From: a bacterium
Lineage (GTDB): Bacteria > 4484-113 > JAFGCY01
Assembly: GCA_020849855.1 (NCBI GenBank)
Contig: JADZFO010000006.1
Location: 1-64,000, forward strand
Length of the DNA: 64,000 nt
Direction of reading: 5' to 3'
Below the pieces are notes generated by a model. The model saw nothing but the letters and a program-made list of their open reading frames with translations. It made no database searches and was not told where the DNA came from. A program made the translations under genes and the position numbers. Every line of letters begins with the position of its first letter. The stretch's first letter is position 1. Below are positions 41,143-46,700 of the stretch, piece after piece.

Positions 41143-41847
41143 ATGAGGCGCATCCTCGCCCTGTTAGCCACCGCTTTTGCCGCCCTGGCCCTTGTCCATT
41201 CAACGGCCCGGGCCGCAGACAAAGAAGAGGGCAACTACATGCTCGGCAGCCAGCTGGTCATCACCAGCGCGAGCCAGCTTGTGGAACCCGCACGCGGCTG
41301 GTGGGCCGATCTGCTGCCGCTGGACTACAACTTCGGCCAGCTCAATCTGGTGAATGCTGTCAACGCGAGCCGCAAAGCCCGCGGCGTGGCAACGATGATC
41401 GACGTGAAGAACTACCCCATCGCCGTCGGGGGCGAGATGCAGGTTGAAGGCGGCTGGGACTACACCATTGACTTCAACCGCATGAGCCCGGAGGATGTGG
41501 ACGCCGTGCTGGCCGCTTTCCCGATGAGCGGCAAGCTGGCCGACACAAAGATGCGTGTACGCCCGCTGAACTATGGCTATGTCTATGCCCACAGCGACAA
41601 CGGCAACCCGGCGGAGCTTGTCTGGGAGGGCCAGACCATCAGCGTGGCCTGGGGCGAGAGCTTTGACTCTGTCTATGGCAAGGTCAGCAGCATGCTCAAG
41701 TCCCTCGCCCCGGATGCGAGCTTTGACCTCAGCCTGAACCAGTACCTGCCGGCCAACGGCGTGAAGAGCATGGATGTCAGCGTCAGCGTCTACCTCAATG
41801 GCGCAACTTCCCCGCCCTTCATGCCTTACGCGGAAGGAGGGATGTAG
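41143..41847 (+). CDS. Secreted protein of unknown function next to the coiled-coil array
   Basis: The 234-residue protein starts at ATG 41143 behind AGGAG. It has a signal peptide (MRRILALLATAFAALALVHS then TARAADK) and a mature domain of about 210 residues with one clear Trp-rich stretch (ARGWWADLLPLDYNFGQLNL) and a compact strand-helix pattern after it. It contains no cysteine. No family is recognised. A strong terminator follows 24 bases after the stop, so it is a separate transcript from the six paralogues that begin 145 bases downstream. A link to them is positional only. Confidence 0.75.
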   Translation: MRRILALLATAFAALALVHSTARAADKEEGNYMLGSQLVITSASQLVEPARGWWADLLPLDYNFGQLNLVNAVNASRKARGVATMIDVKNYPIAVGGEMQVEGGWDYTIDFNRMSPEDVDAVLAAFPMSGKLADTKMRVRPLNYGYVYAHSDNGNPAELVWEGQTISVAWGESFDSVYGKVSSMLKSLAPDASFDLSLNQYLPANGVKSMDVSVSVYLNGATSPPFMPYAEGGM

Positions 41848-41931: not shown

Positions 41932-41963
41932 CGGGTATACCCCGAGGTCACCAAGCTGGCCCC
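41932..41963 (+). promoter_or_regulatory. Shared promoter/5'-hairpin element, copy 1
   Basis: CGGGTATACC followed by a diverged hairpin (GGTC...GGCC) and, 20 bases on, the ribosome binding site CGGGGGAG before the first coiled-coil gene. This is the most divergent of four copies. Confidence 0.45.
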
Positions 41964-41992
41964 AAACAAAACTACTCTCGGGGGAGAACTCC

Positions 41993-42658
41993 ATGAACAA
42001 CGGCAAGGGCCTCGGCTCACAGAACCTCAGGCAGTACACGGCGGGCCTGCTCGCCATCTTCGCGCTGGTCGCCGTTTGCGGCCTGGCCCGACCGGCCGCG
42101 GCCGCGGAGGGGATTGACTACAACTCAAGCCGCTCAAACAAGACCAGCGGCCTGGCCGACCCGGGGCCTGGCGGCGAAGGCGGGGGCGCTGGCAAATCCA
42201 GCCCCAAGCTGGCCGAGGCCGTTTTGAAGGTCGAAGAGATCGACGCCATGGTGGCGGCCCTGCAGCTGCAGCTCCAGGCGCTCGAGACAGCCTGCTATGA
42301 CCTGCAGGTCCTCAGCACTGAGGTGGACGAGGAAATGAGCGAGGACAGCGAGGCAAGCGCCCAGGAGCTGGCCCAGCTTGAGGAGGCGCAGCGTATCTTC
42401 ACCGAGCAGATCGCCATGCTGCTTGACGAGTCCTCAATCTCGGTGGTCAGCGGCGACCTGGCGAAGAAGAAGAAGGACAAGGAGCTGCAGATCGAGAGCT
42501 GGTCCTTCGGGGCAAACAACGCTGGCATGGCCGTGAGCGTTGACCCGCTTATGGAGAACCTCGCGAGTCTGAACGAGGTCTTCGCGTCCCTGAAAGTTGC
42601 CTATCAGGAGGTCAGGGGCCACATGACGAAGCCGCGATCCAACATCCAGAATAACTGA
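41993..42658 (+). CDS. Secreted coiled-coil paralogue 1 of 6
   Basis: The 221-residue protein starts at ATG 41993 behind CGGGGGAG. It has a signal peptide (AGLLAIFALVAVCGLARPAA then AAE). The mature N-terminus NSSRSNKTSGL carries the motif shared by most of the paralogues. A Gly-rich linker follows, then an amphipathic helical region (EEIDAMVAALQLQLQALETA, SAQELAQLEEAQRIFTEQIA). Compared with the others it has extra Lys residues (DLAKKKKDKE) and a longer C-terminal helix. The mature protein is small and probably elongated. No known family is recognised; the shared organisation suggests a structural envelope or extracellular role. A strong terminator follows. Confidence 0.8.
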   Translation: MNNGKGLGSQNLRQYTAGLLAIFALVAVCGLARPAAAAEGIDYNSSRSNKTSGLADPGPGGEGGGAGKSSPKLAEAVLKVEEIDAMVAALQLQLQALETACYDLQVLSTEVDEEMSEDSEASAQELAQLEEAQRIFTEQIAMLLDESSISVVSGDLAKKKKDKELQIESWSFGANNAGMAVSVDPLMENLASLNEVFASLKVAYQEVRGHMTKPRSNIQNN

Positions 42659-42701
42659 TCGTCCTGGCCAGAGCTCAGCGGCCGCGACTTTTCCTGCCAA
42701 G

Positions 42702-42738
42702 CGCCCCGGTCTGGTACGCCAGCCGGGGCGTTTTGCTT
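42702..42738 (+). terminator. Strong terminator after paralogue 1
   Basis: CGCCCCGG-T-CTGG / CCAG-CCGGGGCG: a 12-bp stem with one bulge and a TACG loop, followed by TTTTGCTTTG. Confidence 0.9.
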
Positions 42739-42928
42739 TGCGGCTGTCTATCGCGGTCCAACAGCTGATCTGCATGCCAGTCCCTTACGAATGCCGCAGG
42801 CGGCATGCGACGCAGGCAATGCGAGTACAGCGCTCCAGGCCCACACCTGGCGATTGTCAGGCTGCTTGACTCAGCTTCCGGAAATGCTTCGTTCATCTTT
42901 CACAGATTGGTTTAGCGGTCAGGTGCGA

Positions 42929-42960
42929 CGGGTATTAAAGCCGGTTCCGCAGGGAGCCCC
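42929..42960 (+). promoter_or_regulatory. Shared promoter/5'-hairpin element, copy 2
   Basis: CGGGTATTAAAG is followed by the hairpin GGTTCC-GCAG-GGAGCC, then an A-run and CGGGGGAG before ATG 42993. TTTAG lies 19 bases upstream of GGGTATT. Copy 3 matches closely. Confidence 0.7.
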
Positions 42961-42992
42961 ACAAAAAAAAACAATATCTCGGGGGAGTAGTC

Positions 42993-43655
42993 ATGACACG
43001 CAAGAGCAATGCTCGCGACATCGGCCTGTCAGTACTTGTAGCTGCCGGAGCCGCCTTCAGCCTGGCCCTTATCCAGCCAGCCAATGCCGCCCAGAACAAC
43101 AACACTGTCCGCTCTAACCGCACCGAGAGCCGCAGCTCAGAGGGCTCCGGCGGTGGCGGCGGTGGCGCCGGCAAGGTCAACGTCCATGACATCAGCATCA
43201 TGAAGGTGCATGAAGACATGGATCTGACCCTGAGCCAGCTTGAGAAGATGCTCGCGGATCTGCAGGGACAGATGTCCCAGCTGCAGTCCCTGAGCTCCTC
43301 GGCCCAGGAGATGGCTACAGCGATCGACGAAGAGAGCGCTGCTACCGCAGCGGCCAGCAGCGAGGAACTCGCCCGGCTGGAGAATGCCAAATCGGCTTTT
43401 GAGGAAGAGGTTGCCAGCGAGCTGGAGAGCGACATCGCTTCCTCGGTGACCAGCAGCCTCGACCAGGCGGCCGCTGCGGCTGCCGAGGGCGCCTCCCAGG
43501 AAGAGAGCAGCCTGAGCACCGAGATGGAGGAGCTGAGCTCCATCATCAGCTCACTGCAGGCAGCGATTGACGAGCTGAAGGGCAGTACTGAAGCCGCCAG
43601 CGCACGCAGCAAGGAGATCAAGATCCGCGCCACCCAGAACTCCCAGTCGCTCTAA
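42993..43655 (+). CDS. Secreted coiled-coil paralogue 2 of 6
   Basis: The 220-residue protein has a signal peptide (RDIGLSVLVAAGAAFSLALI) ending near PANA. The motif SNRTESRSS and a glycine run come next, followed by a long Ser/Ala/Glu/Gln-rich helical region (LSQLEKMLADLQGQMSQLQS, EELARLENAKSAFEEEVASE, LDQAAAAAAEGASQEESSLS). It ends with a basic tail (RSKEIKIRATQ). The closest relative is paralogue 4: they share the RDIGLSVLVAA signal peptide and the segment FEEEVASELESD. It forms a bicistron with paralogue 3, 35 bases downstream. There are no enzyme motifs; an elongated periplasmic or surface protein is likely. Confidence 0.85.
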   Translation: MTRKSNARDIGLSVLVAAGAAFSLALIQPANAAQNNNTVRSNRTESRSSEGSGGGGGGAGKVNVHDISIMKVHEDMDLTLSQLEKMLADLQGQMSQLQSLSSSAQEMATAIDEESAATAAASSEELARLENAKSAFEEEVASELESDIASSVTSSLDQAAAAAAEGASQEESSLSTEMEELSSIISSLQAAIDELKGSTEAASARSKEIKIRATQNSQSL

Positions 43656-43690
43656 GCGGCTGCCGCCATCAAAGCAAAAGGAACAATGAA

Positions 43691-44281
43691 ATGAACAGCC
43701 ACAAGAACATCCGCAACCTGGGCCTGAGCGCCATCATCGCCGCTGCCGTCGCCTTCAGCCTCGGCATCAGCAACCAGCCCCAGGCCGCCGACAACCAGAA
43801 CTCCAGCCGTTCGAACAACGGCTCGCCTTCTGACAGCGCTTCCCCGCCCAGCACAGAGGAGCTGAGCGAGACGATGAGCCAGATCGACAGCCTGATCAGC
43901 CAGATCGAGGACGGCCTGACCCAGGCCAGCTCACTGCAGGCGCAGCTTTCAGAGCAGAGCAGCCTGCTGAGCGAGGCCCGCGCGGCCTCCTCCGAGGGCA
44001 ACGAGGAGATGCTGACCCAGATCGAAGAGGCCCGCCGGGCCTTTGAGACCAGCGTCGCCCCCCTGCTTGACCCGGCAACCGTGGAGCAGGTCAGCCTGAA
44101 CTTCACCAAGATCGAGTTTGAGTACAAGCCGCAGCGCGAAGCCTCTGAAGACGATGGCATGGACGATGAGATTGAAGAGCTGTCGTCCTCAATCTCGGCG
44201 GCCCTGAGCGCCCTGGAGTCGCTTAAGGCAGGCTCGTCTGAGCTGACTTCGACCTACGACCTGAAGGCCGCCAAGAAGTAG
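43691..44281 (+). CDS. Secreted coiled-coil paralogue 3 of 6
   Basis: The 196-residue protein has a signal peptide (NLGLSAIIAAAVAFSLGISN then QPQAA) and the mature motif NSSRSNNGSPSDS. Helices follow (LSETMSQIDSLISQIEDGLT, SSLLSEARAASSEGNEEMLT, EEARRAFETSVAPLLDPATV). It ends with LKAAKK. Its nearest relative is paralogue 5, with which it shares QIEDGL-QASSL, RRAFE-SVAPLLDPATVE and the same C-terminus (TYDLKAAKK). Paralogue 6 also has EQVAPVLDPAVAQAV. AAAGGAAC precedes the ATG. It is co-transcribed with paralogue 2 and followed by a terminator. Confidence 0.85.
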   Translation: MNSHKNIRNLGLSAIIAAAVAFSLGISNQPQAADNQNSSRSNNGSPSDSASPPSTEELSETMSQIDSLISQIEDGLTQASSLQAQLSEQSSLLSEARAASSEGNEEMLTQIEEARRAFETSVAPLLDPATVEQVSLNFTKIEFEYKPQREASEDDGMDDEIEELSSSISAALSALESLKAGSSELTSTYDLKAAKK

Positions 44282-44304
44282 GCGGAACCTGGCAAACCTG
44301 AAAC

Positions 44305-44342
44305 AGCCCCGCTGGCCCAGTCTGGTGCCGGCGGGGCTTTTT
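44305..44342 (+). terminator. Strong terminator after paralogue 3
   Basis: AGCCCCGC / GCGGGGCT stem with an 18-base partly paired loop, followed by TTTT. It closes the paralogue 2-3 transcript. Confidence 0.85.
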
Positions 44343-44423
44343 GGCCTGAATTGGCCTGAACAGAGGGCCACAATAGTCATTATGGCGAAATTTCCCTGGA
44401 TTTTGTTTAGACTGTAGCGGGGC

Positions 44424-44454
44424 GGGTATTACTAGCGGTTCCGCAGGGAGCCCC
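44424..44454 (+). promoter_or_regulatory. Shared promoter/5'-hairpin element, copy 3
   Basis: GGGTATTACTAG followed by GGTTCC-GCAG-GGAGCC, identical in its hairpin to copy 2, then CGGGGGAGTAG before ATG 44480. TTTAG lies 18 bases upstream of GGGTATT. Confidence 0.7.
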
Positions 44455-44479
44455 AATTACAAACATCGGGGGAGTAGAA

Positions 44480-45094
44480 ATGACGATCAGCAAGCACACT
44501 CGCGACATCGGTCTGTCCGTCCTCGTGGCTGCGACAGCCGCCTTCAGCCTGGGGCTCGGGATGCCTGCCTATGCGGCTGATGTGAAGAGTCCGCGCGACT
44601 CGGCCAGCGGCCAGGCGACCGGCAAGCGCCAGCACAGCCCCACCGCGCCGGATACCGGTGCGACTGAAGAGGAGATGGGCGCCCGCATCAGCGAGCTGGA
44701 TGCCCTGATCAGCTCCCTGCAGGAGCAGATGACCCAGCTGCAGGCCCTGTGTGTTTCGGCCCAGGAAATGGGCCAGGCCATTGACGAGCAGGCCGCCGCC
44801 TCCAGCGAAGCCAGCGCGGAAGAGCTGGCCCGCCTTGAGAATGCCAAGAAGGCCTTCGAGGAAGAGGTTGCCAGCGAGCTGGAGAGCGATGTCGCCTCCG
44901 AGGTTACCTCCAGCCTGGACCAGGCGGCCGCCGCGGCTGCCGAGGGCGCCAGCGCCGAGGAGTCGAGCCTCAGCTCCGATCTGGAGTCGCTCAATGAGAT
45001 GGTCAGCTCGCTGCAGGCAGCGATTGAGGAGCTCAAGACCCAGTCCGCCGCCGTCAAGGCTGGCTACGACCTGAAGAAGAACGAGAAGGTCTAA
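44480..45094 (+). CDS. Secreted coiled-coil paralogue 4 of 6
   Basis: The 204-residue protein opens with a signal peptide nearly identical to that of paralogue 2 (RDIGLSVLVAATAAFSLGLG). The mature tail lacks the SRSNK motif (ADVKSPRDSASG). Helices follow: SELDALISSLQEQMTQLQAL, EELARLENAKKAFEEEVASE, LDQAAAAAAEGASAEESSLS, VSSLQAAIEELKTQSAAVKA. It ends GYDLKKNEKV, which resembles the YDLKAAKK ending of paralogues 3 and 5. It has one Cys in the helical region (ALCVSAQEMG). Paralogue 5 follows after 64 bases. Confidence 0.85.
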   Translation: MTISKHTRDIGLSVLVAATAAFSLGLGMPAYAADVKSPRDSASGQATGKRQHSPTAPDTGATEEEMGARISELDALISSLQEQMTQLQALCVSAQEMGQAIDEQAAASSEASAEELARLENAKKAFEEEVASELESDVASEVTSSLDQAAAAAAEGASAEESSLSSDLESLNEMVSSLQAAIEELKTQSAAVKAGYDLKKNEKV

Positions 45095-45158
45095 GCCCGG
45101 CCCGAAGCAGCCCAAGGCAGCCTGGCTGCCTGCACCCAACACACAAGGGAGAAAGGAA

Positions 45159-45752
45159 ATGAACACGAACATCATCAACAAGCTGGGCCTGAGCGCAGTC
45201 ATCGCCGCCGCCGCGATCCTGAGCCTGAGCCTGAATAACTCGGCCTATGCCGCCGATGACCACAACTCGTCCCGCTCGAACAAGTCCTCCAGCTCCGCCG
45301 ACAGCGGCGGCGGCGAGGTCAGCGTCGAAGCGCTGAGCGAGACGATGAGCGAGATCGACAGCCTGCTGTCCCAGATTGAGGACGGCCTGAGCCAGGCCAG
45401 CTCACTGCACGCCCAGCTGCTGGAGCAGAGCAGTGTGCTCAGCGAGGCCCGCGCCGCCTCTTCCGAGAGCTCGGCGGAGGCCCTGACGCAGATCGAAGAC
45501 GCCCGCCGGGCCTTCGAAGCCAGCGTCGCCCCGCTGCTGGACCCCGCAACTGTTGAGGCCGTCAGCCTGCACTTCCAGAAGATCGAGATGGAAGCCCGCG
45601 TGATGGACGAAGACAGTGATGACGACGGCCTGGACACCGAGATCGAGGAGATCTCCAGCTCCCTCTCCGCCGCCCTCTCCGCCCTGGAAACCTGCAAGTC
45701 CTCTTCTTCTGAGCTGATCGCGACCTACGACCTGAAGGCCGCCAAGAAGTAA
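45159..45752 (+). CDS. Secreted coiled-coil paralogue 5 of 6
   Basis: The 197-residue protein has a signal peptide (KLGLSAVIAAAAILSLSLNN then SAYAA) and the mature motif NSSRSNKSSSSADSGGG. Helices follow: LSETMSEIDSLLSQIEDGLS, SSVLSEARAASSESSAEALT, EDARRAFEASVAPLLDPATV. It ends LIATYDLKAAKK. It is the sister of paralogue 3 along its whole length. GGGAGAAAGGAA precedes the ATG. It is the second gene of the paralogue 4-5 transcript and is followed by a very strong terminator. Confidence 0.85.
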   Translation: MNTNIINKLGLSAVIAAAAILSLSLNNSAYAADDHNSSRSNKSSSSADSGGGEVSVEALSETMSEIDSLLSQIEDGLSQASSLHAQLLEQSSVLSEARAASSESSAEALTQIEDARRAFEASVAPLLDPATVEAVSLHFQKIEMEARVMDEDSDDDGLDTEIEEISSSLSAALSALETCKSSSSELIATYDLKAAKK

Positions 45753-45768
45753 CAAACTGCAAACCTGC

Positions 45769-45808
45769 AAGGCCCCGGGCATCCCGTGATCGGGACCCGG
45801 GGCCTTTT
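45769..45808 (+). terminator. Strong terminator after paralogue 5
   Basis: AAGGCCCCGGG / CCCGGGGCCTT with an inner TCCCG/CGGGA stem, followed by TTTTGCTTG. Confidence 0.9.
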
Positions 45809-45892
45809 GCTTGTGTGCGATGTCTTATCCTGTATCGCCGGGCATGTACATCCAGGCCTGAGCGCCGGTCATGTTTGCAGCGGCGCTGCATA

Positions 45893-45923
45893 GGGTATTA
45901 AAGTCGGTTGCTACCCGGCAACG
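45893..45923 (+). promoter_or_regulatory. Shared promoter/5'-hairpin element, copy 4
   Basis: AGGGTATTAAAG followed by a different but equally placed hairpin (GTTGC-TACCCG-GCAAC), then AAGGGGGAA before ATG 45949. The stem is kept while the sequence changes, which supports a structural role. Confidence 0.6.
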
Positions 45924-45948
45924 CATGAACCTGCACAAGGGGGAACTG

Positions 45949-46614
45949 ATGATTAACAGCACAAGCCTGCGCCTGGTACTGGCGGTCTTCTTCTTTGTCC
46001 TGCTTGCCGGCGGCAGCCTGCAAAGCGCCAGCGCGGCTGAAGGCAACCAGAACGAAGCCCGCAGCAACAAGTCCCGCGGCGGGATCCGCGCGGATGATGG
46101 CAGCGGCGGCGGCGGCAGCGGTGGCAGCGCCGGCGACGCGATCATCGAGAACATGCGCACACGCATAAACGAGCTTGAGGAGCGCCTCAAGAACCTGGGC
46201 ATCCTGTCGGCGCAGGTTGACCAGGAGCTGGCCGCCATTGACGCCCTGCAGCAGGAGATCAGCAGCCTGAGTGTCCAGGCGCGGGATGCCGCAGAGGCAG
46301 AGGCCGCCGCTGCCGAGGACCTGTCAGCCCAGTATGAAGAGGCGACGCGCGTCTTCAATGAGCAGGTAGCCCCTGTGCTGGACCCTGCAGTGGCGCAGGC
46401 CGTGCTGGCCGCGCTGGACGGCGCCTCGAAGGAGGCGGGCAGGATGCGCAGCTCCGGCGGAGTGACCGTGGCCAGCGGCGATGTGAACGGTGACGGACTT
46501 GACAGCTCGGTCAGTGAAGCGCTGGACGAGATCCGCGAGGCGGCTGCTGACCTGAAGAAGGTGGTCGAGAAAGCCACCAGCGGCCTGAAGGACACGCTGA
46601 AGACACAGGTCTAG
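45949..46614 (+). CDS. Secreted coiled-coil paralogue 6 of 6
   Basis: The 221-residue protein starts at ATG 45949 behind AAGGGGGAA; the frame is open 26 codons upstream, but that part precedes the ribosome binding site. It has a signal peptide (LRLVLAVFFFVLLAGGSLQS then ASA), the mature motif NQNEARSNKSRGG and a Gly/Ser linker. Helices follow: MRTRINELEERLKNLGILSA, EATRVFNEQVAPVLDPAVAQ, LDEIREAAADLKKVVEKATS. The stretch ASGDVNGDGLDSSV looks like a Ca-binding EF-loop (D-x-N-x-D-G) not present in the others. It is a single-gene transcript closed by the terminator at 46667. Confidence 0.82.
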   Translation: MINSTSLRLVLAVFFFVLLAGGSLQSASAAEGNQNEARSNKSRGGIRADDGSGGGGSGGSAGDAIIENMRTRINELEERLKNLGILSAQVDQELAAIDALQQEISSLSVQARDAAEAEAAAAEDLSAQYEEATRVFNEQVAPVLDPAVAQAVLAALDGASKEAGRMRSSGGVTVASGDVNGDGLDSSVSEALDEIREAAADLKKVVEKATSGLKDTLKTQV

Positions 46615-46666
46615 CGGCTGTGGTCCTGGCCTGCCAGAGGCTGGCCAGCCTGAATGAGCAAAGGGG

Positions 46667-46700
46667 GGGCGGAGCCAGGCTCCGCCCATTTCTGTTTCTC
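46667..46700. terminator. Terminator between paralogue 6 and rtcB
   Basis: GGGCGGAG/CTCCGCCC stem with loop CCAGG, followed by ATTTCTGTTTCTC on the plus strand. It also lies 34 bases beyond the convergent rtcB stop, so it may serve both genes. Confidence 0.75.

Follow-up and report, generated by a model that had tools for sequence, protein, structure and literature searches.

Two kinds of described protein come closest to the genes reported here. Envelope coiled coils of the Lpp and OmpH type are small, exported and helical, and Hcp (PF05638) is the barrel-domain tube protein of the type VI secretion system (T6SS). We compared both with an array of six consecutive plus-strand open reading frames (ORFs; copies 1 to 6) at positions 41993-46614 of a 64,000-nucleotide stretch of DNA from a bacterium of candidate phylum UBP7 (contig JADZFO010000006.1, positions 1 to 64,000; hereafter the window). 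The ORFs encode proteins of 196-221 amino acids (aa) that are paralogous by alignment, and their coordinates agree with an earlier sequence-only reading of the window. By analogy only, they resemble the Lpp/OmpH-type proteins as small exported helical proteins of envelope type, but none of the six has a lipobox Cys at its cleavage site (copies 1, 4 and 5 have only isolated Cys) and none matches such a family. With Hcp they share short segments, namely GGGGGAGK-V-x-V-x-D-I, SPRDxxSGxxTGKRxH, V-S-L-N-F-x-K-I-E-F-E-Y and a C-terminal KAGYDLKKN, each in different paralogues. Unlike Hcp, they have no barrel domain (the models of copies 5 and 6 are all-helical), are Sec-exported, fall below the family cut-off and carry their Hcp segments in part in another order or drawn from two subclasses.

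The array is part of an 11-gene regulon-like family, and no described protein family accounts for the combination. A profile of the six array proteins found five more genes in the same genome (E ≤ 2.3e-14), one on contig C34, three on C40 (C40a, C40b and C40c) and one on C44. The family therefore has 11 members in this genome, six in the window and five on three other contigs, outside the DNA that the sequence-only reading covered. When the upstream regions were aligned by eye, all nine genes that lead a transcription unit were preceded by GGGTAT at -49 to -63 and GGGGGA at -8 to -13. At most promoter sites, a TGTTT block precedes GGGTAT at a distance of about 16-20 nt. The pattern GGGTAT-N7-GGTY-N18..45-GGGGGA occurs at 11 sites in the 3.8-Mb genome, versus none in a reversed control. 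Since nine of these 11 sites precede family genes, on four contigs, the family reads as a regulon or at least as a promoter-sharing set. The sequence-only reading had not noted this element. No Rfam match and no match to the sigma-70 consensus was found. We have high confidence in the family, its promoter and the modular anatomy of its proteins.

Within the window the transcription units are 1, 2-3, 4-5 and 6, and a strong intrinsic terminator ends each. The sequence-only reading was right about four units with terminators, but had placed five genes in them, where there are six. The units are laid out as follows.

41933..41985, plus strand: promoter/leader of copy 1 (GGGTAT-N7-GGTC...GGGGGA)
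41993..42658, plus strand: copy 1, 221-aa helical protein with export signal, single-gene transcription unit
42701..42732, plus strand: intrinsic terminator after copy 1 (-26.7 kcal/mol, z -4.9)
42930..42986, plus strand: promoter/leader of copies 2-3
42993..43655, plus strand: copy 2, 220 aa, leads bicistron 2-3, duplicate pair with copy 4
43691..44281, plus strand: copy 3, 196 aa, second in bicistron 2-3, duplicate pair with copy 5
44305..44338, plus strand: intrinsic terminator after copy 3 (-30.0 kcal/mol, z -4.3)
44424..44473, plus strand: promoter/leader of copies 4-5
44480..45094, plus strand: copy 4, 204 aa, leads bicistron 4-5
45159..45752, plus strand: copy 5, 197 aa, second in bicistron 4-5, structure model m8ddd3ea8512e
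45770..45805, plus strand: intrinsic terminator after copy 5 (-31.4 kcal/mol, z -4.8)
45893..45944, plus strand: promoter/leader of copy 6
45949..46614, plus strand: copy 6, 221 aa, single-gene transcription unit, structure model m8e72167d77ab
46662..46693, plus strand: intrinsic terminator after copy 6 (-21.3 kcal/mol, z -3.3)

The other copies are 23-29% identical to copy 1, with invariant E/A/F/A/L/V columns in the core. The duplicated pairs are much closer, at 58% aa identity for copies 2 and 4 and 69% for copies 3 and 5, with a ratio of nonsynonymous to synonymous substitution rates (dN/dS) of about 0.5. The codon usage of the array is that of other window genes (r = 0.98).

The two remaining sites of the promoter pattern precede a secreted subtilase-like ORF of about 1,490 aa (C32:21049-21116) and a 61-aa ORF (C10:48615-48666). 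These genes are possible further members of the regulon; the -35-like block is poor at both sites. Directly upstream of the array, at 41146-41844 of the window, lies a gene for an exported protein with no Pfam match and without the family promoter pattern. Its homologues in other UBP7-family genomes are 24-38% identical.

We next determined how the proteins are built. All six copies have Sec-type signal peptides with AxA-like cleavage sites, as the sequence-only reading had predicted. In an alignment of all 11 proteins, the signal peptide is followed by a variable N-tail, a long helix, a kink, a variable mid-loop, a second helix and a variable C-tail. The kink, A-x-x-x-F-x-x-x-V-A-x-x-L (also given as AxxxFxEQVAxLLD), is conserved, and A115, F119 and A124 are invariant. 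The three variable positions are filled by short recognisable peptides, which we call words. AlphaFold, run on the six window sequences, predicts helical structures for copies 5 and 6: one helix of 71-83 residues, then another, then a loop that leads to the C-terminal helix. Helical residues score about 75-93 in the predicted local distance difference test (pLDDT), and the N-tails come out disordered. The copy 5 model has helices at 56-126, 129-151 and 156-196 with pLDDT mostly 80-93, and copy 6 is alike.

Foldseek returned no PDB match at E ≤ 0.001, and profile searches of Pfam, NCBIfam, PHROGs and PADLOC gave only generic coiled-coil noise. Among the array proteins no Pfam or NCBIfam match to an SLH, pilin or other surface-structure domain was found. 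These results leave standing the proposal of an undescribed, exported, helical and probably well-expressed family without a clear match to characterised S-layer, pilus or Lpp-like proteins. The YDLKAAKK terminus ascribed to two copies was likewise found, in copies 3 and 5. Two earlier statements need correction. The tail of copy 4, called degenerate, is a different and well-formed peptide, SPRDSASGQATGKRQHSP. Nor do the proteins lack any known motif, as had been thought, because their tails and loops hold short significant pieces of T6SS Hcp and words of secreted mosaic proteins from other phyla.

Copies 2 and 4 offer the clearest evidence that the tails are exchangeable units on a kept scaffold. 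As DNA, they have an identity of 0.87 across most of the leader and of 0.67-0.69 across the signal peptide. The N-tail is far less alike (0.42-0.48), the scaffold mostly reaches 0.6-0.89, and where the C-tail starts the value drops again to 0.49. Copy 2 has the tails RSNR with a GGGGGAGK loop and RATQNSQSL, and copy 4 has SPRD...QH and KAGYDLKKNEKV. This pair shows that tails can be replaced wholesale after duplication while signal peptide and scaffold are kept. New tail combinations within the genome probably arise when paralogues recombine.

The words have two sources: segments matching T6SS Hcp, and a wider peptide vocabulary found in secreted mosaics of other phyla. For the former, the alignment reference was five annotated Hcp genes from plasmids, and all queries were drawn from this genome's own sequences. 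Eight of the 11 paralogues scored above all 255 control sequences of the same genome for Hcp similarity, and word matches reached z values of up to 8.8 over shuffled sequences. A query made of family peptides only retrieved exactly four plasmid genes from 72,556 records, all annotated as Hcp. Besides the words listed below, the segment SEGSGGGGGGAGKVNVHDISIMK of copy 2 aligned to Hcp, C40b matched it with AASDYLLELDGVKGES and VSINFAKMEVKY, and C34, C40a and C40c matched it at the SPRD loop.

42485..42526, plus strand: copy 1 loop word LQIESWSFGANNAG, resembles an Hcp strand but departs from the Hcp order
43149..43205, plus strand: copy 2 N-tail word GGGGGGAGKVNVHDISIMK, Hcp loop/strand
44084..44137, plus strand: copy 3 loop word EQVSLNFTKIEFEYKPQR, Hcp strand
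44255..44278, plus strand: copy 3 C-tail YDLKAAKK, resembles Hcp C-terminus
44585..44641, plus strand: copy 4 N-tail word KSPRDSASGQATGKRQHSP, corresponds to a loop in the other Hcp subclass
45053..45091, plus strand: copy 4 C-tail VKAGYDLKKNEKV, Hcp C-terminus
45726..45749, plus strand: copy 5 C-tail YDLKAAKK

No member reached the PF05638 cut-off, the best scoring 19.3 bits against 23.5 and covering 32 of 129 positions. A simple collinear origin in a single Hcp does not fit the early Hcp strand in the C-terminal half of copy 1, nor the joint presence in copy 4 of segments from two Hcp subclasses. The genome (94% complete) contains no true Hcp, gp19 gene or phage-type sheath, the T6SS sheath (TssC) not having been searched, and gp19 occurs only as a word inside a giant ORF on contig C21. 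Copying of the words from tube genes of the same genome was rejected, as none were found there.

The second source became apparent outside UBP7. A restricted DNA pattern for D[YH]NSSRSNK matched 17 stretches in 84,980 genomes. A few were isolated or partial, and most lay in frame in secreted-type ORFs of Chitinophagaceae, Verrucomicrobiota, Lentisphaerae, Fibrobacteria, a Rubrivivax metagenome-assembled genome, haloarchaea and a euryarchaeon. The array words with counterparts or related forms in this set are the following.

42116..42145, plus strand: copy 1 N-tail word DYNSSRSNKT, shared unchanged by a Chitinophagaceae mosaic and a second one from UBP7
43617..43652, plus strand: copy 2 C-tail IKIRATQNSQSL, compare VKLTASQNSQSL in Chitinophagaceae
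45258..45293, plus strand: copy 5 N-tail word DHNSSRSNKSSS, shared unchanged by a Chitinophagaceae mosaic and one from a euryarchaeon
46045..46074, plus strand: copy 6 N-tail NQNEARSNKS
46558..46611, plus strand: copy 6 C-tail KVVEKATSGLKDTLKTQV, 18/18 identical to the C-terminus of a 984-aa Chitinophagaceae mosaic protein

Further identical peptides linked those ORFs to UBP7 proteins (RRRVEVLKSNKQGDPDANR, GHVTVLKIAAGGGG, KQTQGATFGEKVN and RDAASGLPTGKRQH), and the C44 words LRATATFSDGSSSDVT and GEGKKEYTGHVSLIK also had counterparts there. These ORFs were chosen by one word; with that word masked, they shared 32 8-mers with the array proteins. A control comparison of 86,692 by 60,273 8-mers, with about 300-fold more pairs, gave five shared 8-mers, so about 0.015 would be expected for the array. 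Identical words were written in different synonymous codons throughout, which argues against recent DNA transfer, and recent horizontal transfer of the words was rejected on this ground. The Chitinophagaceae mosaic protein has orthologues in two of 38 relatives (G251 and G259), and since these keep the same words, the words are inherited in real genes.

The Chitinophagaceae mosaic (L069/L122), an outer-membrane-type protein, resembles the array in having an NQNSSRSN word near its mature N-terminus, the last 18 residues of copy 6, and the words QNSQSL, ATATFSDGSSSD and SPRD. It differs in its length of about 1000 aa, its SdrD/CarboxypepD_reg domains after an N-terminal region that looks by eye like a barrel, its Bacteroidota host and its codons. 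Its NNPLYKG repeats (L122:1501-4452, minus strand) match the integrin beta cytoplasmic tail model PF08725 below the cut-off (E 0.0027), and it carries a kinase-like peptide, HRDLAARN; these are eukaryote-like words in a bacterial surface protein. Two haloarchaeal secreted proteins (L067 and L077) combine the DYNSSRSNK word with a gp19-like KRPGR-KY-N-TL segment in one ORF, and the Halapricum one also has an HRDL-like peptide.

In a survey of 240 genomes, convincing words were found in UBP7 only. Apparent matches in G036, G099 and G136 were weak and were set aside: two come from another family of small proteins, and none of the others was a clear word match. This small family (L085/L086; G136 and G099), of 188-194 aa, has an LPGG-V-SA motif and a C-terminal DTAK-N motif and may be the natural source of two of the words. 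Words other than the Hcp one were absent from 72,556 plasmids, 50,697 phages and PDB, and the SRSNK pattern had no match in IMG/VR. A literature search found neither the words as text nor papers on such mosaics.

Giant proteins of UBP7 itself show that the vocabulary is wider than the array. We compared two genomes from the same family of the phylum, JAGRNT010000002.1 ('UBP7 HKST-UBA03') and JAHEFU010000166.1; all UBP7 data are metagenome assemblies. Hcp, gp19, VgrG-OB, EF-Tu, kinase-loop and FG-GAP fragments occur across the giant of JAGRNT010000002.1 and that of our own genome (C21), and JAHEFU010000166.1 has an orthologue of the C-terminal part of the former with its words conserved. Like the array, these giants carry (D/N)(Y/H/Q)NSSRSN(K/N) and/or SPRD words. 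Unlike it, they measure from at least 800 (a fragment) to 3900 aa, have Hcp, gp19, FG-GAP or FecR regions and lack both the helical scaffold and the promoter pattern. The C21 ORF (L028:5662-16026; 3455 aa) has a FecR domain and single fragments resembling EF-Tu, HU, gp19, Hcp, an extracellular contractile injection system core and FG-GAP. It also has nine LLLPAVQK(V/I)R(E/A)AA repeats, which we take to resemble the segment after the pilin N-terminus in DUF1559 proteins. The giant ORF of JAGRNT010000002.1 (L027:2217-14024, minus strand; C43; 3936 aa) contains an Hcp region (1.9e-27), several copies of the Hcp loop, four gp19 loops, an EF-Tu switch-I peptide, a VgrG OB segment, a kinase HRD loop and seven SRSN words.

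The scaffold has a much narrower distribution. The six-protein profile found no member in 59 other genomes, and the 11-member profile none that was convincing in 115 others, including three genomes from its own family of the phylum. Motifs of the scaffold from copies 3 and 5 had no match in a scan of 84,980 species other than our own. Wide distribution in related genomes, to which the sequence-only reading had looked for support, was thus not found. Synteny with the relatives is uninformative because the array-neighbour genes sit on separate contigs there.

In the view that we favour, the family is exported and co-expressed and forms an oligomeric scaffold on which exchangeable docking peptides are displayed, with a probability of roughly 0.42 for the whole. 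The helical scaffold proteins are predicted to be produced together in large amount and then exported. Associating through their long helices, they would build elongated oligomers of one or of several paralogues, located in the envelope or extracellularly, and an oligomeric exported scaffold is in our view somewhat probable. The disordered tails and loops would be shown as interchangeable docking tags, so the paralogue set would be a combinatorial display and not a set of redundant copies; a role of the tails in docking or assembly is a tentative part of the proposal. Several points weigh against this view. The scaffold occurs in no other genome tested, and cross-species conservation therefore cannot support function. 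Expression, location and oligomerisation are predicted from sequence and monomer models, and the word boundaries, drawn by eye, are approximate. Copies 5, 6 and C44 did not rise above the controls for Hcp similarity, and copy 1 did so only narrowly. Finally, the vocabulary of the giant proteins includes housekeeping pieces such as EF-Tu, which make little sense as docking tags.

Alternatively, the proteins could be ordinary elongated spacer coiled coils of the envelope or periplasm, whose tails are low-complexity linkers and whose word matches have no function. Their composition and generic coiled-coil matches, together with the lack of a specific fold match, fit this, but the word matches lie far above controls, the peptides are conserved with different codons and the tails swap as blocks, and we consider it unlikely. 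Quite unlikely, too, is that they are degenerate Sec-exported descendants of an Hcp-like protein whose ancestor gained a helical insertion and lost its barrel, with different relics kept by different paralogues. Some pieces do lie near Hcp-like positions (the start, penultimate strand and C-terminus in C40b; the penultimate strand and C-terminus in copies 3 and 5), and an exported ORF in another phylum (L065), read by eye as Hcp-like, carries an AQDYNSSRSNK tail. However, the misplaced strand of copy 1, the mixed subclasses of copy 4, the many words that are not Hcp and the sub-threshold PF05638 scores all speak against such descent.

A weaker alternative to the display scaffold is that the proteins are secreted decoys or antagonists, in which tube-derived peptides (Hcp, and gp19 in the giant ORFs) bind or poison the tubes of competitors' injection systems or phage tails. 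This reading arises because the producer has no recognised tube of its own, and among the words that can be identified, those of Hcp and gp19 occur most often. The absence of Hcp, gp19 and a phage-type sheath from the genome counts for it to a limited degree, as the T6SS sheath family was not searched and a 94%-complete genome may miss genes. The EF-Tu, kinase-loop, pilin-like and Rhs-like words do not fit, and we regard decoy activity as very unlikely. Signature peptides of unrelated families that are identical across distant taxa in different codons are hard to reconcile with known evolution, which could mean instead that the deposited genomes contain chimeric assemblies or sequences of artificial origin. 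Against such an artefact stand the graded paralogy, the dN/dS ratio, the host codon usage and the promoter common to four contigs. Orthology argues against it as well: a mosaic from one Chitinophagaceae genome recurs in two of that genome's relatives, and two separately deposited UBP7-family assemblies have orthologous mosaics. This explanation is the most unlikely of all.

Beyond the display scaffold, the words may form an undescribed vocabulary of peptides of about 8-20 residues that unrelated bacteria and archaea use as interchangeable building blocks of their exported proteins, kept as peptides while their codons change and reordered on different scaffolds. We put this forward as a possibility that is itself doubtful. 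The scaffolds would be coiled coils here and giant repeat, barrel-type and Rhs-like proteins elsewhere, and the UBP7 array would be the simplest case, with one scaffold, three sockets, eleven combinations and one promoter. Its 200-residue proteins make it a compact test case. The array would also raise the question of why a bacterium without a recognised tube should display segments of tube proteins. If the proposal is true, the family would be a natural display scaffold that tolerates exchanged tails. Proteins could then evolve by swapping tiny peptide units, with selection acting on the peptide, between phyla and even between domains of life, in a modular evolution below the level of the protein domain that standard profile searches overlook.

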